A stretch of 64,000 nucleotides of DNA, taken from Rhodoflexus caldus (GTDB lineage Bacteria; Bacteroidota; Bacteroidia; Cytophagales; Thermoflexibacteraceae). The stretch lies in the NCBI RefSeq assembly GCF_021206925.1, contig NZ_JAJPRF010000014.1:1-64000 (forward strand). Reading direction: 5' to 3'. The notes beneath the pieces are model-generated. The model searched no databases. It was not told the DNA's origin and worked only from the letters and a program-made list of their open reading frames with translations. The first letter of the stretch is position 1. Every line of letters starts with the position of its first letter. This document shows positions 38,303 through 59,214 of the stretch, one piece after another. Both the position numbers and the translations under genes were made by a program.

Positions 38303-41300
38303 TTACTTCTTCACCAACTTCCTGACGATTACGCCTTCCGATGTTTCTATCTGCAACAGGTAAACACCCGAAACCTGTGCTTCCAGATTCAACTGCGCGC
38401 CGAACAGCAAGTCATTGGCCGTGAGCGAATGAGCGGCAATGAGCCTGCCCTGCAAATCGGTGATGCGCAAGGTATGCGCTGCGTTGCTTTGTCGCAACAT
38501 CGTCACAGGGAACTTCACCTGAAAGACACCGCCTGCCGAAGGGTTTGGATATATGCGCAACTCGTGTGCCCATACAGGCTCGGTAGGCAGCGCAGTTACA
38601 TTAAACCCTTCCGGCTCCGAAAATGCCGTACAACCGTTGCGGTCGGTGATGCGCACCCGATAAAAACCCGATTCGGAAGGTTCAAACTGTGCGCGGTTGG
38701 CATCGGCTACCTGCACGTTGTCTTTAAACCACTGGTAACTTATCACTTCGCCCGATGTTTCGGCTGTCATACGCCCGTTTTCGGTGCGGATGCGCACCAC
38801 AGGAGCAGGATTGCGGCGAATGGTGATACTTTCCGACAAAACGGTGCATCCGCCTTCGGTCAGCATACGCACGGCATAAGTGCCCGGCTCACGTGCCGTG
38901 AAATTGAGGCTCGCAGCTCCGCCGATTCCCTGCCCGTCTTTCAACCAAAGCAACTCAACTACGTTCTGATTGCGGGCGGCGCTCAACTGCACAAAAATCG
39001 CTTCGCCTTCACAGAAGTTCAGCCCTCCCGAAACCGTCAGGCGTGTATTGATGCCTGTTACACTGCTGCCGCAACTCAGGCGCACATCGTATTCCGCGCT
39101 GAGCAGCGTCAGTGCAGGTGCTTCGGGGTTCGTAACTTCTACGGTGTAAATACCGCTTTGAGCAGCCGTTGCGCTGTTGATAGGCAGCGCGGGATTGTCG
39201 GTAGCAACCACCTGCACGCCATTGCGCAACCAACGGTAGCGGTTTTGTTCGCCTCCCGTGCGGATTTCCAGCAAAAAGCTGCTGCCCTGCTCGGCGTTGA
39301 TAATTTGCGGCGTGCCGATTCGCGCTTGCGGTGCATAGATGAAGTCTATCGGACGGAACAATGGCATCAGCGGCAGTAAATCAGCAAAATCCAGTTTGTT
39401 GGAGTACGCATACAGTTTTTGCAAGCGGCGGAGCGCATCCAAGGGCGGCAAATCGCTGATTTCGTTGTTGTGGAAAAGGAATACTTCCAGCGCGGTCAGG
39501 CGACTGATGCTTGCAGGCAGTGCAGTCAGCAGGTTAAACGAAACGTCTAAATAGCGGAGCTGCTGCAAAGGTGCAAATATATCGGGCAGGTGCACCAATT
39601 GATTATTGCGCACAATCAGCGTGCGAAGTTTTTGCAGAGAAGTCAATTCAAAGGGCAGAACAGCAAAGCGATTGTTGTTCAATAGGAAGGCTTCCATATT
39701 TGCCAATGCGCCAATTTGCCCGCTTAATCGGTCAAATCGGTTTTCGGATAAAATAAGCGTTACCAACTTTCGCAGGCGGCTGATGCCATCGGGAACTTCT
39801 CCCGAAAAATCGTTGCGGCTCAGGTCTAAGTATTCCAGTTCTTCCAGATTCAGCACCCAGCCGGGGAACAACCCCGACAGGCGGTTGCCAGACAAGTTCA
39901 GGTATCGCAACTTGCCAAAAGCCACAATGTTGGCTTCAAAAACGGCTGCCAAATCGCCGGAGAGGTTATTGCCGCTCAGGTCTATGCCAACCACTTCGCC
40001 GTTTTCTACCTTTATGCCGCGCCACGTACCGGGCGGGTCGTTAAAATTCCATTTTTCGTGCCAATCTTCGCCGCCTGTGGCATTGTAGAGCCTGCGCAAT
40101 CGCTCAATATCCATCGGGTTATTTACCTGCGCACTGTTAATGGTTTGTGTACCGCCCGCGGGCAGTGGATTCACACCTATTTTGGCAAGTTCATTGTTCG
40201 CCAACGTTACTTGCGTCTGAGCAACTGTTCCTATCCTAATAGTGCGACCTGCCTGTGCCTGCACGGCAATATCTGCCGTGAGGATGAGAAACAGATTGGT
40301 GCTGCGTTGCAAATTCAGGTTTAAGTTGCCGAATGTAAGCGTACTACCTGCTCCTGCGGACGGCACGACGGCCAATTCCCTGTCCTGAGGGTCATAGGAG
40401 GCATTGGACGATAACCACAAGCGGAAACCGTTGGGTTTCAGGTCTTGCGCCGTAAATGTCCCTTCGGTGCGCAATTGCAGGCCTTGCAAAACCTGCGCCT
40501 GTCCGCGGGCAAACAGGCTGATTACGTACAACGGATGCTTATCCGTATTCGGGTCAATATTGCCCGCATCTACTCCTGCAAAACCAATATTCAGCCCTGC
40601 ATGAACTTCAAATGCCCTGTTTTCGGAAACCAATTCGGGAGCAGGGACAACGTCGGTGCTGTTGGCCACCGAAATTTGTGCCGTCCCAATGTTGGCTGTC
40701 AATTCGGGGGGAATGATTGCCTGCAACTGCCTGCTATTGACAAAAGTTGTGGCTAACCGTATGCCGCCATTCCAGCGAACAACAGCCCCGGGCAGGAAAT
40801 CATCGCCAAATAAGGTGAGCACGGTCGCTGCCCCTTCGGCAATGGTAAAGGTAGGGGAAATATTTTGCAGTATCGGCGTAAAAGGCAGTGTTCTGCCTAC
40901 GCCCGTCAGTGCCTGAGCGGTATAATTGGCTGTATTGCCTCTGCCGTTAAAGGCATATACATCTACGGCGTATGGCGTGTCGGCTTCCAGTTGTGCTGCC
41001 GAAAACTGCCGCGTATCGTCAATGCCTATGATGCGCACACCGTTGATAATTTCACCCACGTTGTACGATTTACTGTCTTCGGGCACAAAAGGCGGCGTAT
41101 CGGACAAACGGATGGTGATGAGGTAATTTTCAGGCGCAGGCAGCGACTCGGTAAATTCACCACCCAAACCCGATTTGGTACGGCGGGTAAACCGTAAATC
41201 AACAGGCGTAGCGGCGGGTTCGGTTGCCAGAGTGGCCGCTGCTCCGCTCAAAGGGTCGGTGGTGCGGTAAAGCCGTCTTGTACCGTTGCCGTTGTAGGCA

Positions 41301-44300
41301 TACACATCAAAAACATATTCGGTGGCAGGTTGTAAACCGTTGGCAACAAAGCTCAAATTATTGCCCTGTGCCACCACCCAATGGTTGGGAGCCAAGGTTG
41401 CACCTACGGCATAGTTGGTGCCGTCTTGTGGCAATATGCGCGTGCTTCCCTGCGGTCTTCTAATGACTAAATAGCCTGCCGCACCACCAAAGGAAGGCGT
41501 AAATGCACCTTCAATTTTGCGGTCGGTAATGCCTGAAAAAACAAGTGCCGTTGGTGAGGCATCGGGCGTTTTTACCTGTGTTTGAAAACGTGCCAAAAGC
41601 GATGGCGTTATCAGGTAGTTGGTGGCTATTCCCGTACCGTTCAGGGCATACACCGAAACCACGTATTCTGTATCGGGCAGCAGGTTGTTAATGAAAAAGG
41701 TATTGAGATTGCCCCGATAAACCACCCGCACATTAGGTGCAATAAAGCTGCCCACAGCATAAGCCACCCCATCCTGTGGCGGTGCTTCGGACGTGCCAAG
41801 CGGACGGATGGTTGCCAGATACCCGCTGCAACCACAACCGGTAGTAAGGATAACATTACCTGTGGCACTTGTGGCCGTAATATTGGTAATGGTCAGTGGG
41901 GCGGGCTGCGCCAAAGGGTCGGGTGTAGGCGGCAAAGTTTGTACACTACCCGATAGAACAGCACTTATCAGATAGTTTCGCGTAAGCGGGCTGCCATTGT
42001 AGGCATACACATCATACGTATAATCGGTTAGTGGTATAAGTGCATAGATATCGTTAAATGACAAACTAACTCCGGAAGCAACCACCATTTGTCCGGCATA
42101 AACAGTACCCGGCATGTAAGCCTGCCCGTCAATGGGAAACGTTTGCGGGTCGCCTGTCAGTCGGCGCAATACCAGATAGCCATCGGCAGGTGTAACAGGC
42201 GGGTCAAACAGACCTGTTACCTGTACGCCGCTCACGGGGGTAAGCGTCAGGTTCAGCGGCGGGTTGAGCGGCTCGGCTGCTAATGTGGAAAAGTTCGCGG
42301 GGTTGCCTGTATCGGGGTTGATATTGTAGGTAATATTGGGCAGATTTTCGTTGTACTCAAACACCTGAACGGTGTACTGCGCAGCAGGCAGCAGGCCTGT
42401 TACCGTTACGGGGCCTGCACCGCTGCCATTGAATACGACCTGATTGCCACTGCCGCCGTAAACGGTATTGGCCGTATAGGAAGTATTGTTGAGCGGCGGC
42501 GAAACAGGCGACGTATCATCTGTGATAATCACTAAGCGGTGCGTACCGTTGCCGTTTGCCCAGTTTAACTCTGCCGAAGTGGGCGTAATATTAGTTACCG
42601 TAACAGCTGTTGCCTGCACGGTTGGCGCCAGCCCTCCGATGGGTGTAACCAAAACAGGCACCCGCGAAGACTCACATGCCAAAACAGGGTCGTATGAGCT
42701 TACATAAAACGTAACAGGGACGATTACGGGCGGCGTAATGAACACCCCCGAGGTAGTAGCCAGAGGCGTACCGCCCGTTGGCACATCGTACCATCGGAAA
42801 TTGCTGACTCCCGTAGCCGTAGCCGAAAGTTCTGCCGTGCCGCCTATTATGGGCACAAGGGTAACGGTTGCCGTTGGCACCGGCAGGCTGCAAACGGTTT
42901 GGATGCCCTGCGCGGGCAGCGAATCAATCCCGACAATAGAGGCCGCTCCATTAAATACAAAATTATTTTTCCGAATAATACCCGTCCGCACGGTTTCTCC
43001 GCTGTTGGCAAGCGGGGCTATGTCTGCCGTAACCCAGAAATAGCGCACATCGCCCGGGGCAATACTCACAGGCGAAAGTATCAGGAAGTTGATATCTTCG
43101 CCGCTGCCTGTGTTGGTCGGGAATGCCGCATTAACCAAGGTAGCGGTGCTGAAATTGTCGGCCGTATTTTGATAAAGTTCAAATTGACTGATGTCGGTAT
43201 TGGTGTATGTTCCTCTGAACGGAATCAGTACTCCTGTAAAGTCAGGTAAATCAGCCGCACCCTGCGTAACGTTTTCCAAAGAAAACTGCGAGAGTATATG
43301 CCGCAGCGTGCCGGGCGATACTAATTGGTCGGGAATGTTGGTAAACGACAGCAGAAAAGCAGGCAGTTGCACAAAAGGCGATGTATTGTCCGCTATATCG
43401 GTGGCCGATACGACTAACCTATCGCCTCGGCTCACGCCCGGCAGCGATACCGACCAGTCGCCATCCAAATCGGTTAAAGTAGTGGCTATGATTTCCCTTG
43501 CCTGCCGCGGTGCAGTCGTAAAGGCACAAGTAAGGGAATTATCGCGGTAAACGGTAATGGTATCAAAAGGCACGGAACGACCCCGTAATTCCATGAAAGG
43601 ATTAATCAGGTTAGGGGTAAATGAGGTAACAGTAGGAGGCGACTTGTCATTATTGCCGCCCGCAACTAACTCCGCCGCCGCCAATTCGTTACAGAAAATG
43701 CGGTTATTGCGGAAATTATTGCCCGTTCCGCCCGATACTCTCACCCCTACCTGTGCACCGCCAATCAGGTTGGGCATTCCCAACTCGGCACCGCCAATAA
43801 CATTATCGTTGCCACTGATGCTGATGCCCGCACTCATCGAAGGAATAGCGTCTATATCAATGCCATTGGGTTTTACGGCTATAAAGTTGCCTTGCACCGT
43901 ATTATTTGAACCTTGCAGTGTAATGGAACCGCCAAGGAGGTTGCGCTCGGCTATATTTCGTCCGCCAATTGTATTGTTATTGCCCACTACGTTTATTTTG
44001 CTGACAGAAGGAGTAGCTACAAGGTCGGCATCAGGCTCTCTGCCGATATAATTGCCTTTAACAGACACATTGGAAACACCCGCACTGATGGTAATTTCAC
44101 CGAATACCCCTCCTGCAATTGCCACTCCCGACAAGTGCGAATAGCTTGCACTGCTTGTAAAAGGCGTTGTTTGCGTATCAAACTGTATAGCCCCCTGAAT
44201 TTCTATCCGAATATCGGCAGGGGTTGAAAGGCTTACGGCAGGTGCAGCCCCGGGCTGTGTATAGCCGTTAATCACCACGCGGTCGCTAAAACTAAAAGAG

Positions 44301-47300
44301 CCGATGATAGTATGCGGCCCTGCCCCCGGAATGTTAAAATAAATAGCATTCACCCCGGGCAAAGCATTGGCTTCCTCCGCAGCTGCCCGCAGCGAGCAGT
44401 TGCCCGTTCCGTCATCGCAAATGCCATCGCCCGGGTTGCTGTCGGGCGTATTGGCCGTCGTATTCACCACAAAAATACCTGATGAAAGTATTTGTGGCGA
44501 TGAAAACGGCGAAGTATTACCCGCAGCATCGGTGGCCGTTGCCGTGTAACGGTGGCCGGGGACGGGCGCAAAAGGAATTGACCACGTGCCGCCGCTGACA
44601 ATGGTTTCGCCAATCAGCAGCCTGCCTTCGGCTGTGTTGGGTGAAGGTAGGCCGTTATTGGTGAAAATCTGTATTCGGTCGCCGTCGGTGCCTGTGCCGC
44701 TAAGTGTAAGGTCAGCAGCGGCAATGGCATTAATTGCGGGAGCAGCTTTGTCATTGTTCGCACCTACGTCTAACACAATGCCATCGCCCGTGTTGTTGTA
44801 GATGCGGTTGTGCAAAATGCGGTTGTTGGTGTTTGCACCAAGGCTGCCGATAACAACCCCCGCGCCGTTGTGGGCAATAATATTTCCTTGCCATGCATCG
44901 TTGCCGCCTATCTGATTGGAAGTGCTGTTGTCATCTATCAATACGGCAGTGCCTGAGTTGCCCAACGGGGCAATGCGATTGGCTGCCACACCAATGGCAT
45001 TGCCCCAAACGTAGATGCCTGTGGCATCAGCCCCCAAATTAATCGCTGTGCCGCTGATGCCACTGATGAGGTTGCCTGTTTCGGTATTGTTTGAGCGTCC
45101 GATAAATTGGTCGGCCGCATTGGCAACCGAAATGCCAAGCGAAGTGGCAACTGCTGCATTTCCTGCCGCATTCGTACCGATGTAGTTGCCTATTACTTTG
45201 TTGTTTGTGCCTGCGCCTTCAATTAAAACACCTGTTTCCAAACCGGCTATTACGTTGCGGCGGGACTCTATTCCATTGCCGATAAAGTTACCAAAAGATA
45301 AACTCCCTCTGATGGCTACTCCTGTGCCAAAGTTGTTGTAACTGTTGGCGCCCGTTGCATCCAAGCCAATGTAATTGCCAACAATGCGGTTATCGTAAGC
45401 ATCGTTTATCAGCACGCCCGTGCCGAATTCCTGTACTTCAATCACGTTCATGCCGGCAGGTGTACCGTCGCCGATAATGGTACTGTTTACAAATGTGCCT
45501 ATGAAAATTCCGCCATCGTTGGCATTAGGCAAAAATGAGTTATCAGGCCTGATACCGATGAAGCAGCCCGTTACTTTGCAATCGGATACATCCAAACCAC
45601 CGATGTTAATGGCAGCGCCGCTTTGGTTGGTAATGGAAAGCCCACGGACTTCTATGCGCGCTGCCGCAAGCCTCAACCCGTTAGATGTGGCAGCTCCTAC
45701 ACGGTTGATTTCTATTTGGATAACGGCATTATTGGGTAACCCAATGGCATTGCTGTTGGGAACAGCACCGGGTTGCGAATAGCCGTCTATGAGCACCTGT
45801 TCGTTAATATCGGGCAAATCGTCGGTGAGGAAGATGGTATGAGGCCCTGCCCCGGGTATATTGAAACGAATCAGGTCAAAGCCTGCGGAGGCATTGGCTT
45901 CTTCAATGGCTGCCCGCAATGTGCAGTTGCCCGTGCCGTCGTCGCAAATGCCGTCGCCCGGGTTGGCATCGGGCGTGTCGGCGGTGCTGTTTACCACCAG
46001 CTCTTCCGTTTTGAAAATGGCATATTTGCGAGGCGTTTCGCTGATGGTCATATTGCTTGCTTCCATAAAAAAATCTAACCCGCCAAAAACAGCAGAGGGA
46101 TAGCGCTGCCATACGCCGTCAAATACATACAAGCGTTGGAAAGCAGGATTGCCGACATTCAAAGCCGAGGGGTAAATCATGCTGAAAGTACCTACGGCAA
46201 CAGTTCCCGCACCTGTGGGCGCTTGCATCTCAATTTCAAAGTTGGCATAATCGGAAGTTAATGCAGGCGGGAAAAAACCGATTGCGGCAGGCTCCATCAC
46301 CCGAAAGTAGTAAATGCCCGCCGTGGCCATGTCGCCTACATTAACCGTAATCGGGGAACCCACAATTGTGGCCATCCTCAACTCTTTGGCAGGCTCTGCC
46401 GCATTGAAAAATACGCCCCAGCGACCCGAGCCGTTGGTTTGTACAACCCCTCCTTCGGGATATGCCACAATGCCGCCCGCTACAATCAGGTTGTTTGCAC
46501 CCAACCGTATGCTGCCGCTGCTCAGGAACAGGGCGTTGGTTGTTATGTTTCCTGCCGGTAGTTTGACGCTGTTGCTGACTTCCAGCGTGCGATAAACCGA
46601 AAGTGCGGGAATGATTTGCGTAGAACTTCCCCCGAAATGAATCGTGCTGTTTTCTCCCAAGCCGGAAGTTGTTACCAGCAACTTAGCATCTGTAAGCCCC
46701 GCTACGGCACCGTCTAATCGGAGTTGGTGGTCTTCGCCCTGCATGTCGAGGATGCCGTCCGCATCTACCTGCATCAGCCCGCTAATCCGCAGACTCTGCG
46801 GAAAAATGGCGGAAAAACTCCATATGCCGACTTTTATAATGAGCGAAGAAAGTAAAGTCTGTTGAGGCGAACTGTACTTAACTTCGGCTGTGGGCGTGTT
46901 CTTTTCAATGAGAACGCCCACACTGCCCGATATGTTCTCTACCGTAAAATTAACATTGGCACCACCGATAAAAGCGATTTGCCCAATGCCCGATGAGGCA
47001 GTGATAACGGCAGTGCTTGCTACCTGTTGCAGGTTGTTAAGCACTTGCAGTTGGCTGTTTCCCCGCAAGTCCAACGTACCGTCCGATTGCACAAAATCGC
47101 CTTCTACTCTCAGCCGCCCCGGGTCGCTCCCCGATGACAACCGCAAAAAACCGCCTGCAATGTTTGCATCTCCCGTAACGGTCAATTGTCTTGGGGCAGT
47201 AGCAGCCAGATTTAGCGTACCGGTACCTGTGCTAACCATATCCAGCGATGTCAGCGTGAGGTTGCGGTCTATCAAAAAATCACTGCTTTGTCCGCTGCAA

Positions 47301-48046
47301 TCCCACGTCAAATTACCAAAAACGGGGGCTCCCCAATGGTCAAATTCCGTGGCATCGCTGATGCCGCTAATCAATACGGTTGATAAAGGTTTATAAATAG
47401 CCGCTGGAATGCTGTCGCCATTGACATTGTGGATGTATGTTGAACCGTCGCGAAAGTCTATCAACCCTTGATTGCCCGCACGGAAGGCACTGAGCCTACC
47501 ATATCCCGAGGCTGGCCCTGCCACATGTGTTGCCTCAATGCTGCCTTCAATCACAAAAATTGAAAAATTATTGGCAGGTCGCAAGCAAAATACGGCATTA
47601 GGGGCTGAACCGCCGTACAGTTGCAACGACTGCCCCGACGCATGAACGAAATTACTCAATACGTTCAAGAAAGTAGGTATGGTAAGCGATGTAGTAAAGG
47701 CCACTCTGTCCGATGAGCCGAAATTGACAATTTCCAATCCTCCGACTGAGGTATTGGTAACTGAAAAAACAACCGTAACGCTTCCCGTTTGCACCCCTGC
47801 CAGCGACGAAATATCGGAGCCGTCAAAAATAGCGCGGTCTATAATGCCGGGGACACCTGCGCCGCCTGCCCCGCCTAATGTAAGCGACCAGTTAGCCGTG
47901 CTGTTCCATACGCCACCGATTCCACCCACCCAGTAATAGTCTGCGGCCGAAGTCTGTATTGCCCAGAATAACAGTACGAATAAGCCTGCAAAACTTTTAC
48001 GACACCATTTTTTAAAAAAGAAAACGTTTTGTAAATAATACGGCAT
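38303..48046 (-). CDS. Giant T9SS-secreted modular surface protein
   Basis: A 3247-residue exported protein. It has an N-terminal signal (SFAGLFVLLFWAIQTSA) and then YYWVGGIGGVWNSTANWS, common at the start of Bacteroidota surface proteins. Two CSLREA-type modules (NPGDGICDDGTGNC) lie near residues 685-740 and 1193-1250, each followed by parallel beta-helix repeats with NNxIGG/GNYIG motifs. About five fibronectin-III-like modules (about 1815-2390) precede an IPT/TIG-like domain (about 2392-2485), an LRR domain (about 2645-2900) and two Ig-like domains. The end (LRIYPNPSAGG...GVYLLQIETSEGVIVRKLVKK, about 3162-3247) is a type A T9SS sorting domain, so it should cross the outer membrane and stay on the surface. 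Likely an adhesin or glycan-binding protein. It stands alone between the glycan operon and the origin. Confidence 0.9.
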   Translation of the reverse strand: MPYYLQNVFFFKKWCRKSFAGLFVLLFWAIQTSAADYYWVGGIGGVWNSTANWSLTLGGAGGAGVPGIIDRAIFDGSDISSLAGVQTGSVTVVFSVTNTSVGGLEIVNFGSSDRVAFTTSLTIPTFLNVLSNFVHASGQSLQLYGGSAPNAVFCLRPANNFSIFVIEGSIEATHVAGPASGYGRLSAFRAGNQGLIDFRDGSTYIHNVNGDSIPAAIYKPLSTVLISGISDATEFDHWGAPVFGNLTWDCSGQSSDFLIDRNLTLTSLDMVSTGTGTLNLAATAPRQLTVTGDANIAGGFLRLSSGSDPGRLRVEGDFVQSDGTLDLRGNSQLQVLNNLQQVASTAVITASSGIGQIAFIGGANVNFTVENISGSVGVLIEKNTPTAEVKYSSPQQTLLSSLIIKVGIWSFSAIFPQSLRISGLMQVDADGILDMQGEDHQLRLDGAVAGLTDAKLLVTTSGLGENSTIHFGGSSTQIIPALSVYRTLEVSNSVKLPAGNITTNALFLSSGSIRLGANNLIVAGGIVAYPEGGVVQTNGSGRWGVFFNAAEPAKELRMATIVGSPITVNVGDMATAGIYYFRVMEPAAIGFFPPALTSDYANFEIEMQAPTGAGTVAVGTFSMIYPSALNVGNPAFQRLYVFDGVWQRYPSAVFGGLDFFMEASNMTISETPRKYAIFKTEELVVNSTADTPDANPGDGICDDGTGNCTLRAAIEEANASAGFDLIRFNIPGAGPHTIFLTDDLPDINEQVLIDGYSQPGAVPNSNAIGLPNNAVIQIEINRVGAATSNGLRLAAARIEVRGLSITNQSGAAINIGGLDVSDCKVTGCFIGIRPDNSFLPNANDGGIFIGTFVNSTIIGDGTPAGMNVIEVQEFGTGVLINDAYDNRIVGNYIGLDATGANSYNNFGTGVAIRGSLSFGNFIGNGIESRRNVIAGLETGVLIEGAGTNNKVIGNYIGTNAAGNAAVATSLGISVANAADQFIGRSNNTETGNLISGISGTAINLGADATGIYVWGNAIGVAANRIAPLGNSGTAVLIDDNSTSNQIGGNDAWQGNIIAHNGAGVVIGSLGANTNNRILHNRIYNNTGDGIVLDVGANNDKAAPAINAIAAADLTLSGTGTDGDRIQIFTNNGLPSPNTAEGRLLIGETIVSGGTWSIPFAPVPGHRYTATATDAAGNTSPFSSPQILSSGIFVVNTTANTPDSNPGDGICDDGTGNCSLRAAAEEANALPGVNAIYFNIPGAGPHTIIGSFSFSDRVVINGYTQPGAAPAVSLSTPADIRIEIQGAIQFDTQTTPFTSSASYSHLSGVAIAGGVFGEITISAGVSNVSVKGNYIGREPDADLVATPSVSKINVVGNNNTIGGRNIAERNLLGGSITLQGSNNTVQGNFIAVKPNGIDIDAIPSMSAGISISGNDNVIGGAELGMPNLIGGAQVGVRVSGGTGNNFRNNRIFCNELAAAELVAGGNNDKSPPTVTSFTPNLINPFMELRGRSVPFDTITVYRDNSLTCAFTTAPRQAREIIATTLTDLDGDWSVSLPGVSRGDRLVVSATDIADNTSPFVQLPAFLLSFTNIPDQLVSPGTLRHILSQFSLENVTQGAADLPDFTGVLIPFRGTYTNTDISQFELYQNTADNFSTATLVNAAFPTNTGSGEDINFLILSPVSIAPGDVRYFWVTADIAPLANSGETVRTGIIRKNNFVFNGAASIVGIDSLPAQGIQTVCSLPVPTATVTLVPIIGGTAELSATATGVSNFRWYDVPTGGTPLATTSGVFITPPVIVPVTFYVSSYDPVLACESSRVPVLVTPIGGLAPTVQATAVTVTNITPTSAELNWANGNGTHRLVIITDDTSPVSPPLNNTSYTANTVYGGSGNQVVFNGSGAGPVTVTGLLPAAQYTVQVFEYNENLPNITYNINPDTGNPANFSTLAAEPLNPPLNLTLTPVSGVQVTGLFDPPVTPADGYLVLRRLTGDPQTFPIDGQAYMPGTVYAGQMVVASGVSLSFNDIYALIPLTDYTYDVYAYNGSPLTRNYLISAVLSGSVQTLPPTPDPLAQPAPLTITNITATSATGNVILTTGCGCSGYLATIRPLGTSEAPPQDGVAYAVGSFIAPNVRVVYRGNLNTFFINNLLPDTEYVVSVYALNGTGIATNYLITPSLLARFQTQVKTPDASPTALVFSGITDRKIEGAFTPSFGGAAGYLVIRRPQGSTRILPQDGTNYAVGATLAPNHWVVAQGNNLSFVANGLQPATEYVFDVYAYNGNGTRRLYRTTDPLSGAAATLATEPAATPVDLRFTRRTKSGLGGEFTESLPAPENYLITIRLSDTPPFVPEDSKSYNVGEIINGVRIIGIDDTRQFSAAQLEADTPYAVDVYAFNGRGNTANYTAQALTGVGRTLPFTPILQNISPTFTIAEGAATVLTLFGDDFLPGAVVRWNGGIRLATTFVNSRQLQAIIPPELTANIGTAQISVANSTDVVPAPELVSENRAFEVHAGLNIGFAGVDAGNIDPNTDKHPLYVISLFARGQAQVLQGLQLRTEGTFTAQDLKPNGFRLWLSSNASYDPQDRELAVVPSAGAGSTLTFGNLNLNLQRSTNLFLILTADIAVQAQAGRTIRIGTVAQTQVTLANNELAKIGVNPLPAGGTQTINSAQVNNPMDIERLRRLYNATGGEDWHEKWNFNDPPGTWRGIKVENGEVVGIDLSGNNLSGDLAAVFEANIVAFGKLRYLNLSGNRLSGLFPGWVLNLEELEYLDLSRNDFSGEVPDGISRLRKLVTLILSENRFDRLSGQIGALANMEAFLLNNNRFAVLPFELTSLQKLRTLIVRNNQLVHLPDIFAPLQQLRYLDVSFNLLTALPASISRLTALEVFLFHNNEISDLPPLDALRRLQKLYAYSNKLDFADLLPLMPLFRPIDFIYAPQARIGTPQIINAEQGSSFLLEIRTGGEQNRYRWLRNGVQVVATDNPALPINSATAAQSGIYTVEVTNPEAPALTLLSAEYDVRLSCGSSVTGINTRLTVSGGLNFCEGEAIFVQLSAARNQNVVELLWLKDGQGIGGAASLNFTAREPGTYAVRMLTEGGCTVLSESITIRRNPAPVVRIRTENGRMTAETSGEVISYQWFKDNVQVADANRAQFEPSESGFYRVRITDRNGCTAFSEPEGFNVTALPTEPVWAHELRIYPNPSAGGVFQVKFPVTMLRQSNAAHTLRITDLQGRLIAAHSLTANDLLFGAQLNLEAQVSGVYLLQIETSEGVIVRKLVKK

Positions 48047-48260
48047 TTTTTTATCGTTTAGTATTTTTAGCTTTAATTACCTGATTATCAGTTCTAATTT
48101 ACGATAAATAACGGACGAAAAAATGCCCGAGTAAGTTTTTAAAAATTAATTCATCTTTTAAAAAAGGCTATTCGTAGCTTTCTTTTTATTTAGCTTTCTT
48201 TTCCTACTTTCTTAGAATTACTGCAAATTGCTCATTTTCAACAAATTACACCTTTAAAAT
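48047..48260. other. AT-rich segment left of the iterons (possible unwinding element)
   Basis: About 210 bp of strongly AT-rich DNA lie between the giant gene's start and the first iteron. This is the usual place and composition for a DNA unwinding element in iteron origins, and it must also hold the promoter of the giant gene. I saw no convincing DnaA box (TTATnCACA). Confidence 0.4.
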
Positions 48261-48674
48261 GCTACAAATTTGTGTAGATTGCAAGTAAAAATGCTACAAA
48301 TTTGTGCCTACTCTCCTGCTTGTCTGCTACTAATTTGTGTTGTTTCCCCGCTTAACCGCTACTAATTTGTGCATGTTGTTTTTTTAGAAGTTGTTGATAT
48401 TTTAAACACCCCCTTTTGACTGCTACAAATACGTGCATCCCCCTTTTCCCCTACTGACTGCTACAAATTTGTGTATGTGTGCATGCTTAACTGCTACAAA
48501 TTTGTGTGCTGCAACAAAGCCAACGGCAGGCGCTTATTTCCGCATCAAGTCGCGAGTTGCTGACTGCTACAAATTTGTGTACACCTGTTTTTAACTGCTA
48601 CAAATTTGTGCGTGCGATGCTTTTTTGCCCTACCAACAGGCTCCCTTTGAATTGATAACTGCTACAAATTTGTG
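48261..48674 (+). repeat. Ten direct iterons of a replication origin (oriV)
   Basis: Ten copies of GCTACAAATTTGTG or close variants, all in one orientation, start at 48261, 48293, 48326, 48358, 48422, 48460, 48493, 48566, 48597 and 48661. Seven are exact; 48326 and 48358 read GCTACTAATTTGTG and 48422 reads GCTACAAATACGTG. Right-hand copies extend to TRACTGCTACAAATTTGTG. Spacing is mostly 31-33 or about 64 bases, that is, whole multiples of about three helical turns, which places Rep molecules on one face of the DNA. A Rep_3-type initiator gene lies directly downstream. Confidence 0.92.
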
Positions 48675-48695
48675 CAATGCTTTTTTTTACAATTT

Positions 48696-48724
48696 CTGCT
48701 ACGTAAAATTTTGATTTGTAGCAG
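48696..48724. promoter_or_regulatory. Inverted iteron-like operator before rep
   Basis: CTGCTAC (48696-48702) and GTAGCAG (48718-48724) are a perfect 7-bp inverted repeat whose arms equal the 5' half of the iteron; the right arm extends to TTTGTAGCAG, that is CTGCTACAAA reversed. In iteron plasmids such an inverted pair is bound by Rep dimers to repress rep. It lies 66 bases before the chosen rep start. Confidence 0.7.
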
Positions 48725-48790
48725 CTATCAGTTAAGTTAGAACGTGTTTTTGCATGATTGCAGCGTATTTACTGTACATATAGTGCTAAT

Positions 48791-50128
48791 ATGATTCACA
48801 TGAAAGAAAAGAAAAAACATCCGATACACTATACCGTATTTCATCCAAACATACTGATAGGCGTTAATACCGAACTAAAACTGGCAGAACAACGGCTGTA
48901 TATGGAAGTGTTAAATTTCAACCATTTGGCCGAGCCGGACAGGTTAGACTATGAAATACCCTACGAATTTATCACCCACAGCACCGACAAAAAGGTTATC
49001 CAGAAAAAGGCACATCAGGAGTTTACCCGCATTGCCGAAGTGCTGCAAAAACGTGTTTTTCGCTTGGATAAGGAGTTTATGCAAACGCATTTCAACGAAA
49101 AATATGCCGTTACTTTTAACCCCTTTCCGGTGATTAAATACAAGGAAAAGCACTTTCAAGTGCGCCTGAATGAGTATTTAAAGGCTATTTTGGTAAAATT
49201 GGAAACCGGATTTACCAAAGGCGATATTGAATTGCTTCGCACCTTCCGCAGCGAATACTCTTTTTTGATGTACTGGCTCATCCGCGAACAGCAGTGGAAA
49301 CAGCGCGGCGGCATGTTGGAGTTTACGGTTGAGGGCTTGAAAAAAGCCTTAGGTTGCGAAGACCAATACGAAGGAAGATTCAATAATTTCAAGGCACGCG
49401 TATTGGACGTAGTCTATGAAGAATTTAAAGGGACTTGGGTAGAGTTTGAATACGAAATCGTGCGCGGCGGAAAAGGCGGCAAAGCCATTCAGGCCATCCG
49501 ATTTCACTTTAAAAACGATGCACAGCAAGAACGCACGCTGGCCCCTGTTGCGCAATATGAGTGGGAAAACGAACTGTTGCGCTATGGCGTACAGGAACGC
49601 GATATATGGCGCATCCGCGACTGGGTAAACACTTCTGCACCTTTGAAAGACGATTACATCTGGGATTCGTTCTATGTGGAAACCTGTATTAAGATGGCGC
49701 AGGAGCACTACCGCAGCAAAAAACAGCAACAGAAAGCCAAACAAATACAAAACATGGCTAACTACATTTATGCTGCTTTGATTAATGGCTGGTGGTTGCC
49801 CGAAATAGAGTTTCGCCGCAGTGAATTGCAGAAAAAGTCTTTGGCGATGCTGGTGCAGTCGGGTGCTAAAAGAAACCCTGCACCCGTAACGGCCGAGGCA
49901 GCGGAAAATGCCGCTGTGTCTGCTTTGACCAAAGCAACGGCCTATGCGGTGGAGCGGCAGGCCGAAATTCCATTTGCTGCTGCCAAGCCCAAGTTTACCA
50001 TGCCTTATGCCGATTTTCAGGCAACCTATCGTGCGTATTGCGAAGCCACCGGCGAAACTGTCGGGGAGGCTGAGTTTGCCACACGCCTTGGCTATGTCAT
50101 CGCCGGCGATGTGGTGGAAAAACGGTAG
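48791..50128 (+). CDS. Rep_3-type replication initiator protein
   Basis: A plasmid-type initiator of 445 residues from the ATG at 48791; an ATG at 48800 and a TTG at 48758 are alternatives. The N-terminal part (HPNILIGVNTELKLAEQRLYMEVLNFN, EIPYEFITHS, RIAEVLQKRVFRL) and the second part (LKAILVKLETGFTKGDIELLRTFRSEYSFLMYWLIREQQWKQ, FTVEGLKKALGCEDQYEGRFNNFKARVLDVVYEEF) form the two winged-helix domains of the RepB/Rep_3 family. A C-terminal extension of about 170 residues ends in an Ala/Thr-rich tail. It should bind the upstream iterons, open the origin and repress itself through the inverted half-sites. Confidence 0.92.
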   Translation: MIHMKEKKKHPIHYTVFHPNILIGVNTELKLAEQRLYMEVLNFNHLAEPDRLDYEIPYEFITHSTDKKVIQKKAHQEFTRIAEVLQKRVFRLDKEFMQTHFNEKYAVTFNPFPVIKYKEKHFQVRLNEYLKAILVKLETGFTKGDIELLRTFRSEYSFLMYWLIREQQWKQRGGMLEFTVEGLKKALGCEDQYEGRFNNFKARVLDVVYEEFKGTWVEFEYEIVRGGKGGKAIQAIRFHFKNDAQQERTLAPVAQYEWENELLRYGVQERDIWRIRDWVNTSAPLKDDYIWDSFYVETCIKMAQEHYRSKKQQQKAKQIQNMANYIYAALINGWWLPEIEFRRSELQKKSLAMLVQSGAKRNPAPVTAEAAENAAVSALTKATAYAVERQAEIPFAAAKPKFTMPYADFQATYRAYCEATGETVGEAEFATRLGYVIAGDVVEKR

Positions 50129-50155
50129 TCTTCCCCCTTTGATTTTTATGTGTTC

Positions 50156-50190
50156 AAGGAGCTATCCGCAAGCAAGGGTAGCTCCTTTTA
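50156..50190. terminator. Terminator between convergent rep and parB
   Basis: AAGGAGCTA(T)CC pairs with GGTAGCTCCTT across a short loop, with one bulged T, and is followed on the plus strand by TTTAGTTTTT. It lies 28 bp after the rep stop and just before the parB stop on the other strand. Confidence 0.7.
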
Positions 50191-50194
50191 GTTT

Positions 50195-51097
50195 TTACAA
50201 AAGGCTTTCCAAAGTATCCATCAATGCCTTTGCTTGTTCTAAGGCACTTCTGTTGCGTTTTTTAACGGCCTGCCCCAATAGTTTGACAATATTGTTTTTC
50301 ACCTGTTCGGCTGCTTTTGCCGTGTCATTAGCGGTTGCGGTGTCTGCCGATACGGCTGCCGGTTCGGGGGCAGCGGTTTGCTCTTTGGCTTTTCGGTAGG
50401 CTTCGGCAAAGCTGCTGCCGTTCATGATGTACTCTCCCATTTCTGCCAATATATCGTCTTCGTTGGCAAGATTAGTGAGCTGCAACTTGCTGAATTTGAC
50501 GCGCTTGTTGAGCATGTCCCATTTGAGTTGCTCGTTGCCTTGCGTGAGTTTGTCTAAGGCCTCGGCAAACTTTTCATCGGTTCGGATGGTTTTTTCCGAT
50601 ACCTGATGTTGTTCTGCCAATCGCTCGGCGGTGCGCTCGCCTTCACCTGTCTTCTGAAACTGATTGCTGCCTGTGCCGCCTATTTTGCGTTTTTCCTGTT
50701 TGTATTGCAAGCCGCGCAGGTAGGCTTTGGTTTCTTCGGTAACGTTGCGCTTGCCCAACTGGTTGTTAATCATCCAGTCTTTGGCGGCTTCTTCATCGGC
50801 AAAGTCAATCAACTGAACGCGAAACGGCAGGTTGTAAGTGGTGCAAATTTGGTAGCGGTTATGCCCGTCTATCAGGATATACTTGCCATCGCGTTGCCAA
50901 ACGATGAGCGCATCGCGGCAGCCTTCTTTGCGGATGTTGTCTTCCAACTGGCGGTATTCGTCTTCGGCCAGCGGCGGAATGAAGTGCTTGAACTGTTCTT
51001 CAATAACAATGTTTTCGCGGATATATTCCAACGATTGTTGGTTTTGCTTTTCCGCTTGTTCTACCAACTTATCAAATTTAAATGCCTTTTTTGCCAT
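50195..51097 (-). CDS. parB: ParB-family partition protein
   Basis: A 300-residue centromere-binding protein. The N-terminal ParB/sulfiredoxin-like CTPase region includes EDNIRKEGCRDALIVWQRDGKYILIDGHNRYQIC, with the GHxR motif in GHNRYQ; LGKRNVTEETKAYLRGLQYKQEKR and AERLAEQHQVSEKTIRTDEKFAEAL (about 155-180) form the helix-turn-helix region. It should load at parS sites and segregate the replicon with ParA. The gene is downstream of parA with a 77-bp gap, on the strand opposite to rep. The C-terminus is Ala-rich and probably dimerises. Confidence 0.9.
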   Translation of the reverse strand: MAKKAFKFDKLVEQAEKQNQQSLEYIRENIVIEEQFKHFIPPLAEDEYRQLEDNIRKEGCRDALIVWQRDGKYILIDGHNRYQICTTYNLPFRVQLIDFADEEAAKDWMINNQLGKRNVTEETKAYLRGLQYKQEKRKIGGTGSNQFQKTGEGERTAERLAEQHQVSEKTIRTDEKFAEALDKLTQGNEQLKWDMLNKRVKFSKLQLTNLANEDDILAEMGEYIMNGSSFAEAYRKAKEQTAAPEPAAVSADTATANDTAKAAEQVKNNIVKLLGQAVKKRNRSALEQAKALMDTLESLL

Positions 51098-51174
51098 GCT
51101 TTACAGTAGATTTTTTACACACTCAAATCACTCAACCATCCCGTCAATCGTTTCGTCATCTCATCCTTGCCCGA

Positions 51175-51921
51175 CTATGCCACCTGATTGCCTATGATTT
51201 CTTTGGCTAGTGCCATGTAGTCTTCTGCGCCTGCCGAGCGGGGGCTGTATTCAAAAATATCTTTCCCAACCGATGTAGCTTCTGCCAAACTGATATTTTG
51301 GCGAATGGCCGATTGATAAACCTTGCCGTGATAGATATCGCGGACGGTTTCGGCTATGTGCTGACGGAAAACGGTTTTATTGATTTGCGTAATGAGCAGT
51401 CCGGCAATTTCAATGGTCGGGTTTAGGTTTTCGCGGATGCTTTCTACCAGCCGCAAGATGGTTTGCAGACCTTTTACGGCCAAATATTCGGACTGCACCA
51501 CAATCATTACTTCGGTGGCTGCAATCAAGGCATTGGTGGTCAGGATGCCCAACGAAGGCGGACAATCTATCAGAATAAAATCGTAGTTGTCTTTGACGGT
51601 GCGCAGGGCATTTTTGAGGCGAAAATAGCCATTGACATCGGCTTGCAGTTTTACTTCGGCTTCCGACAGGTCTAAATCTGCCGGTACAAGGTCTAAGTTA
51701 GCCGCCAAATTCATAATAGGCAGCGGTTCGTTTTCACAAACAGCCTGATAAATATTTCGCTCGGGCTCTTCCACACCGATTGCCTGTGAGAGGTTTGCCT
51801 GCGGGTCTATGTCTATGATAAGTGTTTTCCGGCCATTAAGGGAAAGGGCTTTGCCCAAGTTGAGCGTGGTCGTAGTTTTACCCACGCCGCCTTTGTGGTT
51901 GATGATGGCGATAATTTTCAT
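51175..51921 (-). CDS. parA: ParA-family partition ATPase
   Basis: A 248-residue ATPase from the ATG at 51921 (MKIIAIINHKGGVGKTT). The deviant Walker A KGGVGKTT lies at about 9-16, Walker A' is LIIDIDPQANLS and Walker B is FILIDCPPSLGILT. There is no N-terminal helix-turn-helix, as in small chromosomal Soj-type and type Ib-like ParA proteins, so the protein probably does not repress its own operon directly. It drives replicon positioning on the nucleoid with ParB. Confidence 0.93.
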   Translation of the reverse strand: MKIIAIINHKGGVGKTTTTLNLGKALSLNGRKTLIIDIDPQANLSQAIGVEEPERNIYQAVCENEPLPIMNLAANLDLVPADLDLSEAEVKLQADVNGYFRLKNALRTVKDNYDFILIDCPPSLGILTTNALIAATEVMIVVQSEYLAVKGLQTILRLVESIRENLNPTIEIAGLLITQINKTVFRQHIAETVRDIYHGKVYQSAIRQNISLAEATSVGKDIFEYSPRSAGAEDYMALAKEIIGNQVA

Positions 51922-51982
51922 CCGTTGCAAGTTGGTTTGACGTGTACGAAATTAGGATTTTATATGGTTTACACAAAAAAAC

Positions 51983-52028: not shown

Positions 52029-52640
52029 TTAAAAAACTTTATTCAGACCACCAAACGCCAAGTAAGAAGAAAGCCATGCATCTAATTTTTGGAAGGTTAG
52101 AGAAGCTGTTTGCAGCAATTCATCCTCCGCTTCGGGATGGTTACTTGCAAAATCGCTAAGTAATGCCTGAAATTCTTTCCACATATCCCCCAGATTTTCG
52201 GTGCCGTAGCTGTTGAAGTATGCCGCACCTTGTTCGGCAGTAAAACCGAATTTTCTTGCCAGTGCGCGGCTAAGAAATTGTCCGCCAAGTGTAGAACCTT
52301 CCATGACATAGAGAAAACCCACGCGCTGCGCATCGGTTTGAAGAGGCGGCAGGTCGCTGCTCAGAGGCAGGTTGGCGGGGTTGATTTGTAAAAACTGCAA
52401 ATCTTTTATAAGCATCGGTGTTTTGCGGCGGGCTACGATGTTAAATCCGGCCTGTTGCCACAGCGCCGACTTTTCCAGCGGCGGTTCGCAAACGCTGTAA
52501 AAGCCGTAGAACTTACTCAGCAAATGCGCATAGGCCTCTTGTGTGATGGTTTCATCCACAATGGCTTTGGTGAGTGTATTCTGCTCAATCTTATCATGAT
52601 GGGCGGCAGTAAACTCTTTTAGCTTTTTATGAATACTCAT
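52029..52640 (-). CDS. Biliverdin-producing heme oxygenase
   Basis: A 203-residue all-helical heme oxygenase of the BphO/HmuO type, which opens heme to biliverdin, CO and iron with an electron donor. The proximal His lies in FTAAHHDKIEQN, most likely His15, and the flexible distal helix is in FLYVMEGSTLGGQFLSRAL with its glycines. Length is normal. A GGAGAG stretch about 8 bases before the ATG is an unusually clear Shine-Dalgarno-like sequence for this phylum. It is followed by a terminator, so it is monocistronic. No bacteriophytochrome or heme importer occurs in the window; iron release or heme signalling are both possible roles. Confidence 0.88.
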   Translation of the reverse strand: MSIHKKLKEFTAAHHDKIEQNTLTKAIVDETITQEAYAHLLSKFYGFYSVCEPPLEKSALWQQAGFNIVARRKTPMLIKDLQFLQINPANLPLSSDLPPLQTDAQRVGFLYVMEGSTLGGQFLSRALARKFGFTAEQGAAYFNSYGTENLGDMWKEFQALLSDFASNHPEAEDELLQTASLTFQKLDAWLSSYLAFGGLNKVF

Positions 52641-55386: not shown

Positions 55387-58300
55387 ATGTTACCTTTCAG
55401 TATTGTAGGCAAGGAGCGGATGCAATCCTTCCGTTTAGCCGAGCGCACGGCGGAACAATTGCGAAAAGAGGCCGAACGGGCTACTCAGTTTGTAGAAGCC
55501 ATCACTCAGGGAAAATTAGACGAAGCACAGCATACCATTGCAGATTTAGTAACCGAGCAACCATCGGCTTTGACCCGCGCCTTGTTGAAAATGCGCGAAG
55601 AGATGCAAAACATCGCCGCCAAAGAAGTAGAGCGCCAATGGGCAAATGAAGGGTTGGCAAAGTTTGTTGAAATTCTGCGAATAGGTACACACGATTTGGA
55701 ACTGCTCTACAACAGCATTATTTCCAACTTGGTAAGATATGTCAATGCCAATCAGGGCGGTCTTTTTGTGGTCAATGAAGAAGACGGCCGCGAACCGTTC
55801 ATAGAAATGGTCGCCTGCTATGCCTACGACCGCCGCAAGTTCTTGCAAAAACGCATTGAAATAGGCGAAGGACTGATAGGGCAGGTGTATTTGGAAAAAG
55901 AACCCATTCAATACAACGCACTTCCGAAGAACTACTCAACCATCAGTTCCGGGCTGGGTGCGGAAAGCCCCAGTGCCCTCTTGATTGTACCGCTGAAAGT
56001 GAATGAAAAAGTAGTCGGTATGATTGAGTTGGCGGCGTTTCAGCCGTTCCAACCCTATCAGGTAGATTTCATCCGCAAATTAGGAGAAAACATCGCCTCT
56101 ACGGTTGCCAATGCGCAGGTGAGCAAGCGCACGCAATACTTGTTGCGCATTTCGCAGCAGCAAACCGAGCAACTGCGCTCTGCCGAAGAGGAGATGCGGC
56201 AAAACATGGAGGAGTTGCAGGCCACACAGGAGGAGATGCAGCGCAAGGAAATGGAGATGAACGGATTGTTTGCGGCCATAGACCTGACGCTGTGCATGGT
56301 TGAGTTGAATACAGAGGGGGTGATTACTTCTGCCAACCATCGTTTTGCCGAACAGTTAGGCTTTACTACCGACGAACTGCGGGGCAGAAAATTGCACCCC
56401 ATGTTTGTAGCCGGCCGCAAAACGGGCACATTTGAGCAGTTGTGGAATCAGGTAGGCAATGGTATTTCGCAAACGGGCAACTATTTGTTCAGCGGCAAAG
56501 GCAGCCGCCAGATATGGTTGCAGGCGGCTTTCAGCCCTGTAAAAGATGCCGATGGCAACATTCGCAAAGTGCTGATGCTGGGTCAAGACATTACGGCCAA
56601 CAAAGAAGCGGAAATCCAATTCCAGCGCCTCTCATTGGTTGCAGACAATACCGACAATGCCGTTATCATCACCGATGCACAAGGCATTACCGAATACGTA
56701 AACCGCGGCTTTGAGCGCATGACAGGCTACAAAGCCGATGAGATTATCGGCAAAAAGCCGGGGCACATCCTGCAAGGCCCCGATACCGACCCCGAAACGG
56801 TGGCGCGTATCAGTCGGAAACTGAAAACCAAGCGTTCATTCAGCGAGGACATCCTCAACTACGGTAAGGACGGCAAACCATACTGGATTTCGCTGACCAT
56901 CAACCCTATTTTTGATGAAGAGGGAGAGGTGAGTAAATACATCTCCATTCAGGCAGAAATCAGCAAAACCAAGTTGCAGGCCATTGACCTCAACGGCAAA
57001 ATGGAGGCCATCAACCGCGCCAATGCCATTATTGAGTTTGATACGCAGGGGAATATTCTGACTGCCAATGAAAACTTCCTGCAACTGATGGAGTATTCGT
57101 TGGAAGAAATCAAAGGCAAGCACCACAGCATGTTTGTACCGCCCAAAGAGCTTGCTTCGGAAGAGTACAAGCATTTTTGGGAAAAATTGGGCAGTCAGGC
57201 AGGCTTCAACGACGGCGAATTTGAGCGCATTACCAAATCCGGCAAATCTGTATGGCTCAGAGGCAATTATAACACCATTGTTGACCACTTGGGCAGACCT
57301 ACAAAGGTTATTAAGATTGTGCAGGATATTTCGGCTGAAAAAGTACTCCTGATGGAAATTCAGCAGAATAACGAAGAATTGAAAACACAGGAAGAGGAAA
57401 TCCGCCAGAACATGGAGGAACTCCTGAGTATTCAGGAAGCGCTGCAAGCCAAGCAGAAGGAAGCCGAAGCCATTGCACAGAAGTTTACCAATATTCTGGA
57501 AGGTTGCGCCGATTCGGTGGTTACGATTGACAAAACCGGCACGATTAGTTTCTTCAACGCCGCAGCCGAGCAAATGTGGGGCTATGAGCGCAGCGAAGTT
57601 ATTGGCAAGAACGTGAAAATGCTGATGTTCTCCGAACATGCCACCCACCACGACCGCTACCTGCACAACTACGAAACTACCCGTCAGAAAAAAGTAATCG
57701 GCATAGGCCGCGAGGTAGAGGCACGCCGCAAAGACGGTAGCAAAGTACCCATTCTGCTTACGCTGAGCGAAGCAAGTTTCGAGGGCGAGTCGGTTTACAC
57801 GGCATTCATCAAAGACATCACCAAACAGAAGGAGTTAGAGCAGCAAACGCTGCAACAAATAGAGGAGTTACGCACACAGGAAGAGGAAATCCGCCAGAAC
57901 ATGGAGGAACTCCTAAGCATTCAGGAAGCGCTGCAAGCCAAGCAGAAGGAAGCCGAAGCCATTGCACAGAAGTTTACCAATATTCTGGAAGGTTGCGCCG
58001 ATTCGGTGGTTACGATTGACAAAACCGGCACGATTAGTTTCTTCAACGCCGCAGCCGAGCAAATGTGGGGCTATGAGCGCAGCGAAGTTATTGGCAAGAA
58101 CGTGAAAATGCTGATGTTCTCCGAACATGCCACCCACCACGACCGCTACCTGCACAACTACGAAACTACCCGTCAGAAAAAAGTAATCGGCATAGGCCGC
58201 GAGGTAGAGGCACGCCGCAAAGACGGTAGCAAAGTACCCATTCTGCTTACGCTGAGCGAAGCAAGTTTCGAGGGCGAGTCGGTTTACACGGCATTCATCA

Positions 58301-59214
58301 AAGACATCACCAAACAGAAGGAGTTAGAGCTGCAAACACAGCAGCAAATGGAAGAACTGCGCACACAAGAAGAAGAAATTCGTCAGAATCTGGAAGAGTT
58401 GCAGGCCAATCAGGAGGAGATGCAGCGCACCGCCATGAACCTCAACGGGCTGATGGCTGCTATTGACACCACCATGGCAACCATAGAGTTTGATATGGAG
58501 GGGCTTGTGCTGGATGCCAATACAAACTTCTTGGAAATAATGGGCTATCGGTTGGAAGAAATTACAGGCAAACCGCACCGCCTTTTTGTGGATGCCAAAG
58601 AAGCCAGTACGCCCGATTACATCAGATTTTGGGATAACCTGCGCATGGGCAGGCCGTTCATGGGAGAAGTTAAACGCTTGACCAAAAACGGAGAAGAGAA
58701 ATGGTTCAATGCCAGCTATATGCCCGTAATGGACAGACACGGCAAGCCTGTGAAAGTAATCAAACTCGCACAGGAAATTACGAAGCAAAAAATGGTGAAT
58801 CTGGATGTTACCGGACAGTTGGATGCCATCCGTCGCTCTTTTGCCGTTGCCGAGTTTGATATGAAAGGTCATTTGACGGAAGCCAATGAAAATTTCCTCG
58901 ACCTGTTCAATTACGGTATCAATGAAGTAGTTGGCCGCCATCATAAGCTGTTTGCCGGCAAGGAAGAATCGGAAACCAATGAATATGCGATGTTTTGGAC
59001 GAATCTGCGCAGCGGCAAAGCACAGGACGGAGAGTTTAAACTGTTTAACAAAGCAGGCCATGAGGTCATAGCCCGCGGCAGCTATAATCCGATTATGAAC
59101 CTGAACGGCGAGCCTTACAAAGTGGTGGCTTATTTACAGCAAGTGATTATCAAGAAAAACGGCAGGTCTAAGGACAAAACCGCCGTAGAAGCAACCGACG
59201 AAAAGGCCGGTTGA
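55387..59214 (+). CDS. GAF and seven-PAS sensor protein without output domain
   Basis: A 1275-residue cytosolic protein with no membrane segment. An N-terminal helical part is followed by a GAF domain (about 85-245), a coiled coil (EEEMRQNMEELQATQEEMQ), and PAS units at about 293-410, 412-530, 539-655, 700-815, 863-978, 1018-1135 and 1145-1258. Coiled coils rich in QEEEIRQNMEELLSIQEAL link several of them. PAS4 and PAS5 are almost identical and carry the FixL-type heme signature: His755 and His918 at the proximal position, with Arg775 and Arg938 exactly 20 residues later in IGIGREV. No histidine kinase, GGDEF, MCP or HTH domain is present. It probably senses oxygen, NO or redox state and signals through partner binding. 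Confidence 0.88.
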   Translation: MLPFSIVGKERMQSFRLAERTAEQLRKEAERATQFVEAITQGKLDEAQHTIADLVTEQPSALTRALLKMREEMQNIAAKEVERQWANEGLAKFVEILRIGTHDLELLYNSIISNLVRYVNANQGGLFVVNEEDGREPFIEMVACYAYDRRKFLQKRIEIGEGLIGQVYLEKEPIQYNALPKNYSTISSGLGAESPSALLIVPLKVNEKVVGMIELAAFQPFQPYQVDFIRKLGENIASTVANAQVSKRTQYLLRISQQQTEQLRSAEEEMRQNMEELQATQEEMQRKEMEMNGLFAAIDLTLCMVELNTEGVITSANHRFAEQLGFTTDELRGRKLHPMFVAGRKTGTFEQLWNQVGNGISQTGNYLFSGKGSRQIWLQAAFSPVKDADGNIRKVLMLGQDITANKEAEIQFQRLSLVADNTDNAVIITDAQGITEYVNRGFERMTGYKADEIIGKKPGHILQGPDTDPETVARISRKLKTKRSFSEDILNYGKDGKPYWISLTINPIFDEEGEVSKYISIQAEISKTKLQAIDLNGKMEAINRANAIIEFDTQGNILTANENFLQLMEYSLEEIKGKHHSMFVPPKELASEEYKHFWEKLGSQAGFNDGEFERITKSGKSVWLRGNYNTIVDHLGRPTKVIKIVQDISAEKVLLMEIQQNNEELKTQEEEIRQNMEELLSIQEALQAKQKEAEAIAQKFTNILEGCADSVVTIDKTGTISFFNAAAEQMWGYERSEVIGKNVKMLMFSEHATHHDRYLHNYETTRQKKVIGIGREVEARRKDGSKVPILLTLSEASFEGESVYTAFIKDITKQKELEQQTLQQIEELRTQEEEIRQNMEELLSIQEALQAKQKEAEAIAQKFTNILEGCADSVVTIDKTGTISFFNAAAEQMWGYERSEVIGKNVKMLMFSEHATHHDRYLHNYETTRQKKVIGIGREVEARRKDGSKVPILLTLSEASFEGESVYTAFIKDITKQKELELQTQQQMEELRTQEEEIRQNLEELQANQEEMQRTAMNLNGLMAAIDTTMATIEFDMEGLVLDANTNFLEIMGYRLEEITGKPHRLFVDAKEASTPDYIRFWDNLRMGRPFMGEVKRLTKNGEEKWFNASYMPVMDRHGKPVKVIKLAQEITKQKMVNLDVTGQLDAIRRSFAVAEFDMKGHLTEANENFLDLFNYGINEVVGRHHKLFAGKEESETNEYAMFWTNLRSGKAQDGEFKLFNKAGHEVIARGSYNPIMNLNGEPYKVVAYLQQVIIKKNGRSKDKTAVEATDEKAG
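57385..58329 (+). repeat. Near-identical tandem duplication inside the sensor gene
   Basis: Bases 57385-57840 and 57874-58329 are copies of about 456 bp with an offset of 489 bp (163 codons). I count two differences near the start (CTCCTGAGTATT against CTCCTAAGCATT). The unit encodes one coiled coil and one FixL-like PAS domain in frame. Confidence 0.93.

Follow-up and report, generated by a model that had tools for sequence, protein, structure and literature searches.

A protein of Rhodoflexus caldus with recently duplicated FixL-type PAS domains, predicted heme binding and no recognised output domain

Introduction

Heme PAS domains of the FixL type are common; FixL of B. japonicum and S. 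meliloti (BjFixL and SmFixL below) and DosP of E. coli have one heme PAS each, in a histidine kinase and a phosphodiesterase, respectively. The window analysed here, a 64,000-nucleotide stretch of Rhodoflexus caldus DNA, contains an open reading frame (ORF) that differs from them in both respects, since it has two FixL-type PAS domains and no output. Are these two domains heme-binding gas sensors, how did there come to be two of them, and through what could such a protein act? Our best reading, from sequence, is that the ORF product is a soluble multi-sensor protein that would combine two predicted O2/gas sites with as many as four flavin redox sites and work with a separate signalling partner.

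Results

The ORF and its domains

Pfam finds one GAF and seven PAS domains in the 1275-residue ORF and no kinase (HisKA and HATPase included), cyclase, phosphatase or MCP output domain, so the product would have to act via a partner. The top 19-residue hydropathy window of the ORF is only 1.28, and no membrane helix is expected. Its features are as follows:

55387..59214, plus strand: ORF, 1275-residue output-less protein with GAF and seven PAS domains (Pfam)
55690..56103, plus strand: GAF domain, residues 102–239 (Pfam GAF_2, 1.9e-14)
56245..56616, plus strand: PAS1, Aer-type FAD signature with Asn/His/Trp triad
56617..56985, plus strand: PAS2, LOV-like without the flavin-binding Cys (PDB matches; triad incomplete)
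56992..57378, plus strand: PAS3, Aer-type FAD signature with Asn/His/Trp triad (MmoS 3ewk, 4.8e-9; Aer 8dik, 2.7e-5)
57385..57841, plus strand: duplicated unit, copy 1, coiled-coil linker and FixL-type PAS4
57454..57846, plus strand: PAS4, FixL-type heme PAS (FixL 1dp6, 6.5e-24; AlphaFold, Foldseek, VIA-align)
57649..57651, plus strand: codon of H755, predicted proximal heme ligand, equivalent to BjFixL H200 (alignment, census)
57709..57711, plus strand: codon of R775, predicted distal arginine, equivalent to BjFixL R220 (alignment, census)
57847..57942, plus strand: coiled-coil linker joining PAS4 and PAS5 (77 residues from DIT Asp to conserved Asn, 0 mod 7)
57874..58330, plus strand: duplicated unit, copy 2, coiled-coil linker and FixL-type PAS5 (455/457 nt as in copy 1)
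57943..58335, plus strand: PAS5, FixL-type heme PAS (masked census)
58138..58140, plus strand: codon of H918, predicted proximal heme ligand
58198..58200, plus strand: codon of R938, predicted distal arginine
58438..58800, plus strand: PAS6, Aer-type FAD signature with Asn/His/Trp triad (Aer 8dik, 4.2e-14; MmoS 3ewk, 4e-14)
58801..59154, plus strand: PAS7, Aer-type FAD signature with Asn/His/Trp triad

The FixL-type signature of PAS4 and PAS5

A phmmer search of PDB sequences gave BjFixL (1dp6) as the top match, with other FixL entries and DosP next. The stretch HDRYLHNYETTRQKKVIGIGR of the ORF aligns on HDSYISRYRTTSDPHIIGIGR of BjFixL without gaps, and this alignment puts H755 and H918 at BjFixL H200 and R775 and R938 at R220, exactly where an earlier note on this DNA had placed them; of the two His residues in HHDRYL, the second is the aligned one. 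A bare His–Arg pair 20 residues apart is weak evidence, since such pairs also occur at 760/780 and 923/943 of the same protein and shuffled versions of it contain on average 1.2 per protein, and the case therefore rests on the phmmer alignment and the following masked census. Searching 291 genomes of the organism's own taxonomic order for FixL-like domains gave matches in 88 (E ≤ 1e-15), and PAS domains were sorted by three profiles, with the His and Arg positions masked in the FixL profile so that the test could fail. In the FixL class (≥90 bits with the masked profile) the His is present in 60/60 domains and the Arg in 59/60, while the His is found at the FixL position in 0/82 FAD-class and 0/21 LOV-class domains (0/103) of the same set, which was seeded by PAS4 similarity and so carries a slight bias (2 of ~115 positions) toward His-bearing domains. 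This His is also invariant across 49 domains aligned with MAFFT in a separate step, and it has been lost in the relatives L019 (genome G015) and L113 (genome G063). Pocket residues differ from those of BjFixL at R206N, H214K, I215V, M234I and I238L; positions 214 and 238 differ from BjFixL in SmFixL as well.

An AlphaFold2 model of PAS4 (49 aligned sequences, mean pLDDT 90.4, pTM 0.82) retrieved FixL first and DosP second from the PDB with Foldseek, with an rmsd to BjFixL of about 1.0–1.6 Å. VIA-align of the same model gave Z values of 19–20 for FixL, 15.6–18 for DosP and 16.5 for heme-binding FG214, and mostly 13–15.6 for the remaining PAS domains among the matches listed; for the Rhizobium FixL entry 1d06 the fit to the model is looser (2.4–2.7 Å). 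Sequence match, predicted structure and masked census thus agree on the FixL-type heme signature that the earlier note had recognised, and PAS4 and PAS5 are members of the FixL/DosP class. The F-alpha His is the heme determinant of this class; >9,700 of its sequences (60%) have it and about 40% do not (PMC10468136), so drift of the His within the class is common. We consider it quite probable, on the sequence features above, that both PAS4 and PAS5 bind heme. The ORF as a whole was rejected as a FixL orthologue: it has no kinase domain and scores 256.7 bits against an 850-bit cut-off for the NCBIfam FixL equivalog.

The FAD-type domains and PAS2

All four of PAS1, PAS3, PAS6 and PAS7 have Asn, His and Trp at the Aer FAD positions, and these three residues are FAD determinants of PAS domains (PMC10468136). 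The triad is present in 49/52 collected FAD-class domains, these four included (it was left unmasked when the FAD profile was built), and complete in 0/60 heme-class domains, among which neither the FAD-position His nor the Trp occurs (0/60). PAS6 matches both E. coli Aer, in its FAD PAS, and MmoS, and the corresponding matches of PAS3 are weaker (values listed above). A predicted FAD PAS of P. aeruginosa PA0285 has the conserved Trp and Asn and showed binding of neither FAD nor heme (PMC10874727), which makes the FAD half of our reading the weaker one; we regard FAD on at least two of the four domains as moderately likely from their signatures. The top PDB matches of PAS2 are LOV domains, but it has GKKPGHILQG at the LOV motif and an incomplete Asn/His/Trp triad, and a role as a LOV photoreceptor was rejected because the flavin-binding Cys is absent.

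Tandem FixL-type arrays in relatives

Proteins from other genera within the same taxonomic order also combine FixL-type with FAD-type PAS domains, and the outputs of these arrays are MCP, SpoIIE, HisKA kinase or none. Relatives in G102, G185, G012, G041, G008, G011, G273, G060 and G028 end in HAMP_2 and MCPsignal, output-less ones include a protein with one FixL-type copy (G019) and one with five (G056), and some short kinases have two (G133, by Pfam). The G056 protein (L018:2447-6532) and its G107 counterpart (L091:3895-7980) contain three FAD-type PAS domains and, in tandem, five FixL-type ones, all of which have the His and Arg; no output domain was found in the G056 five-copy protein. A G197 protein (L080:7914-12110) consists of a GAF domain, five near-identical FixL-type PAS domains and a SpoIIE phosphatase, and is possibly a multi-heme phosphatase. 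In a tree of these domains, copies from one protein or from sister genomes cluster together in the case of the window pair, of the array in G197 and of those in G056/G107, and tandem amplification of FixL-type domains has therefore happened several times; the FixL-type pair of the kinases is older, and many inner forks of the tree are weakly supported.

Could PAS4 and PAS5 have the FixL fold and residues but carry no heme in the cell, serving as structural or dimerisation spacers whose duplication just lengthens a rod? PAS domains are able to act mechanically, members of the class without the His exist (L019 and L113; PMC10468136), two identical sensors bring no new specificity, and long arrays of near-identical copies occur in the relatives. 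However, a spacer could let the His and Arg drift, and they are kept almost without exception in the FixL class (60/60 and 59/60) and are found in every copy of the tandem arrays, even the five-fold ones. We therefore judge the spacer explanation unlikely, and prefer the reading that PAS4 and PAS5 are heme-type sensors.

The duplication and the heptad register of the linkers

The earlier note had described duplicated PAS domains at 57484–58320; the duplication is real, but the repeated unit is larger, comprising 57385–57841 and 57874–58330, each with a coiled-coil linker in addition to the PAS domain. Over the 457 bp compared, the two copies, offset by 489 nt (163 codons) and in frame, have 2 differences, both synonymous, and share a single exact run of 412 nt. 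The PAS4/PAS5 pair is the product of one very recent in-frame duplication. Since mutually similar coiled-coil-coding stretches (repeat family D3) flank the duplicated unit on either side, the event was probably a very recent unequal crossover that kept both frame and heptad register. As copies of one site, PAS4 and PAS5 are not two different sensors; the two gas-sensing sites that the earlier note foresaw stand as a prediction from FixL/DosP class membership, for one kind of site present twice.

Linker length was taken as the distance between the Asp in a domain's closing DIT motif and the conserved Asn in the domain after it, using profile columns as anchors in place of regex anchors, which were noisy at FAD domains. 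Heptad quantisation holds for every one of the 70 linkers measured: the length is 0 mod 7 in 31/31 linkers that lead into heme-type domains (42, 49, 63, 70, 77 and 91 residues) and 2 mod 7 in 39/39 that lead into FAD-type domains (37, 44, 65, 72, 79 and 86). Related sequences are not independent and distinct lengths are thus the fair count; there are five distinct heme-to-heme linker lengths, for which the chance of falling into one shared residue class is about 3e-5. Heptad-periodic linkers are established in photoreceptor kinases, with like signatures between consecutive sensor modules (PMC6798134). The periodicity favours a parallel coiled coil that runs on without a break; judged only from linker spacing, this coiled coil is probably dimeric. 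The duplication preserved the heptad register.

We also considered whether the second copy is an artefact of assembly, the true gene having one FixL-type PAS or some other number. The genome is a 40-contig draft and the 412-nt exact repeat is longer than short reads, which makes copy number hard to fix. Nonetheless, the copies can be told apart at the two synonymous sites and lie in different flanking sequence, frame and register are preserved, and tandem FixL-type PAS domains recur at an equal 163-residue spacing in G102 and G185, all of which make an artefact quite improbable. The two heme-type sensors are likely to have arisen from one recent duplication within an output-less protein.

Genome and plasmid setting

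No counterpart of the ORF was found in three same-genus genomes, and a whole-protein search of genome contigs matched only distant PAS proteins. The ORF's own genome encodes seven GAF proteins related to the ORF (L002–L008), an orphan family of which four members have PAS domains and one a HAMP domain; a recognised output domain is absent in all seven. It also encodes one related dCache-HAMP-GAF-PAS-SpoIIE protein. Upstream of the ORF the window contains a plasmid-type module:

47900–51930: plasmid-type module, with about seven iteron-like TGCTACAAATTTGTG words
48758–50128: Rep3 initiator
50195–51097: weakly ParB-like ORF
51175–51930: ParA

The top plasmid match of the Rep3 initiator is in Pontibacter sp. 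G13, the Rep gene is missing in the three same-genus genomes, and no tRNA genes were found on the ORF's contig. From its gene content the contig is probably a plasmid. SusD and T9SS genes fit a source in the Bacteroidota, to which R. caldus belongs. A heme oxygenase gene (52029–52640, minus strand) lies 2.7 kb upstream of the ORF on the opposite strand; a tie to the sensor via heme turnover is suggestive only, and chance would explain the arrangement as well. Also in the window are a gene for a 3247-residue protein (38303–48046, minus strand) with a T9SS sorting tail, CSLREA domains and a leucine-rich-repeat-like stretch, which is probably a giant secreted surface protein, and, at 1–38139 of the same probable plasmid, polysaccharide-type genes (sugar transferase, Wzz/tyrosine kinase, glycosyltransferase, asparagine synthase and ATP-grasp).

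That the ORF product is a chemotaxis or aerotaxis sensor, an accessory input of an MCP array, is very improbable, for although the nearest tandem FixL-plus-FAD PAS arrays are on HAMP_2-MCPsignal receptors (G102, G185, G008, G011, G012, G041 and others), no match to MCPsignal or CheW was found in its own genome and the relatives' chemotaxis outputs are thus not available to it. An aerotaxis chemoreceptor of the Aer or Aer2-like type was likewise rejected, there being no MCP domain in the ORF itself.

Discussion

PAS4 and PAS5 share their PAS class and F-alpha His with FixL and with DosP PAS-A, and their distal Arg with FixL. The Asn/His/Trp triad of PAS1, PAS3, PAS6 and PAS7 is common to E. coli Aer; however, Aer, A. 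brasilense AerC, MmoS and NifL have their own outputs, unlike the ORF product, and to our knowledge none of them has FixL-type domains. Vibrio Aer2 chemoreceptors have two or three heme PAS domains (review, PMC13401364), which belong to an unrelated class with the His on another helix (PMC10468136); they resemble the ORF in having heme PAS domains in series, and differ in PAS class and in their HAMP and MCP output. CetB, the PAS-only half of the CetA/CetB receptor of Campylobacter jejuni (PMC13401364), is like the ORF product a sensor without an output domain of its own. But CetB has just one PAS domain, of the FAD kind, and is transcribed together with the output partner, whereas no output partner is encoded next door to the ORF, whose neighbours are a molybdopterin-binding (MoCoBD) oxidoreductase and an S46 peptidase. 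The protein described here differs from these systems in having the FixL class in tandem and alongside FAD-type domains in a single chain, and also in its lack of an output and its near-silent recent duplication.

How might such a protein work? In the domain order GAF, PAS1 (FAD-type), PAS2 (LOV-like without Cys), PAS3 (FAD-type), PAS4–5 (heme) and PAS6–7 (FAD-type), PAS4 and PAS5 would hold b-type heme on H755 and H918, and R775 and R938 would respond to O2 (or CO/NO) as R220 of FixL does. The four FAD-type domains probably carry FAD and would signal redox state, and the domains are probably stacked on a parallel dimeric coiled coil, so that a gas or redox change could twist or shift one rod. 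A partner protein would relay the signal, on the model of CetB acting via CetA, and in the R. caldus genome a kinase or SpoIIE phosphatase seems a more likely partner than a chemoreceptor. As a whole, a plasmid-borne soluble rod that holds two heme-based gas sensors and four flavin-based redox sensors in heptad register and signals to a separate effector, with copy number tuned by recurrent tandem duplication, is a picture that we put forward tentatively.

If the cofactors bind, this would be a naturally occurring sensor of oxygen and redox state combined on a single rod. The family offers one, two or five near-identical FixL-type modules on different outputs, and so makes testable what is gained from tandem identical heme sensors (cooperativity, range or gain) and whether PAS signal transfer along coiled coils proceeds by strict heptad steps.
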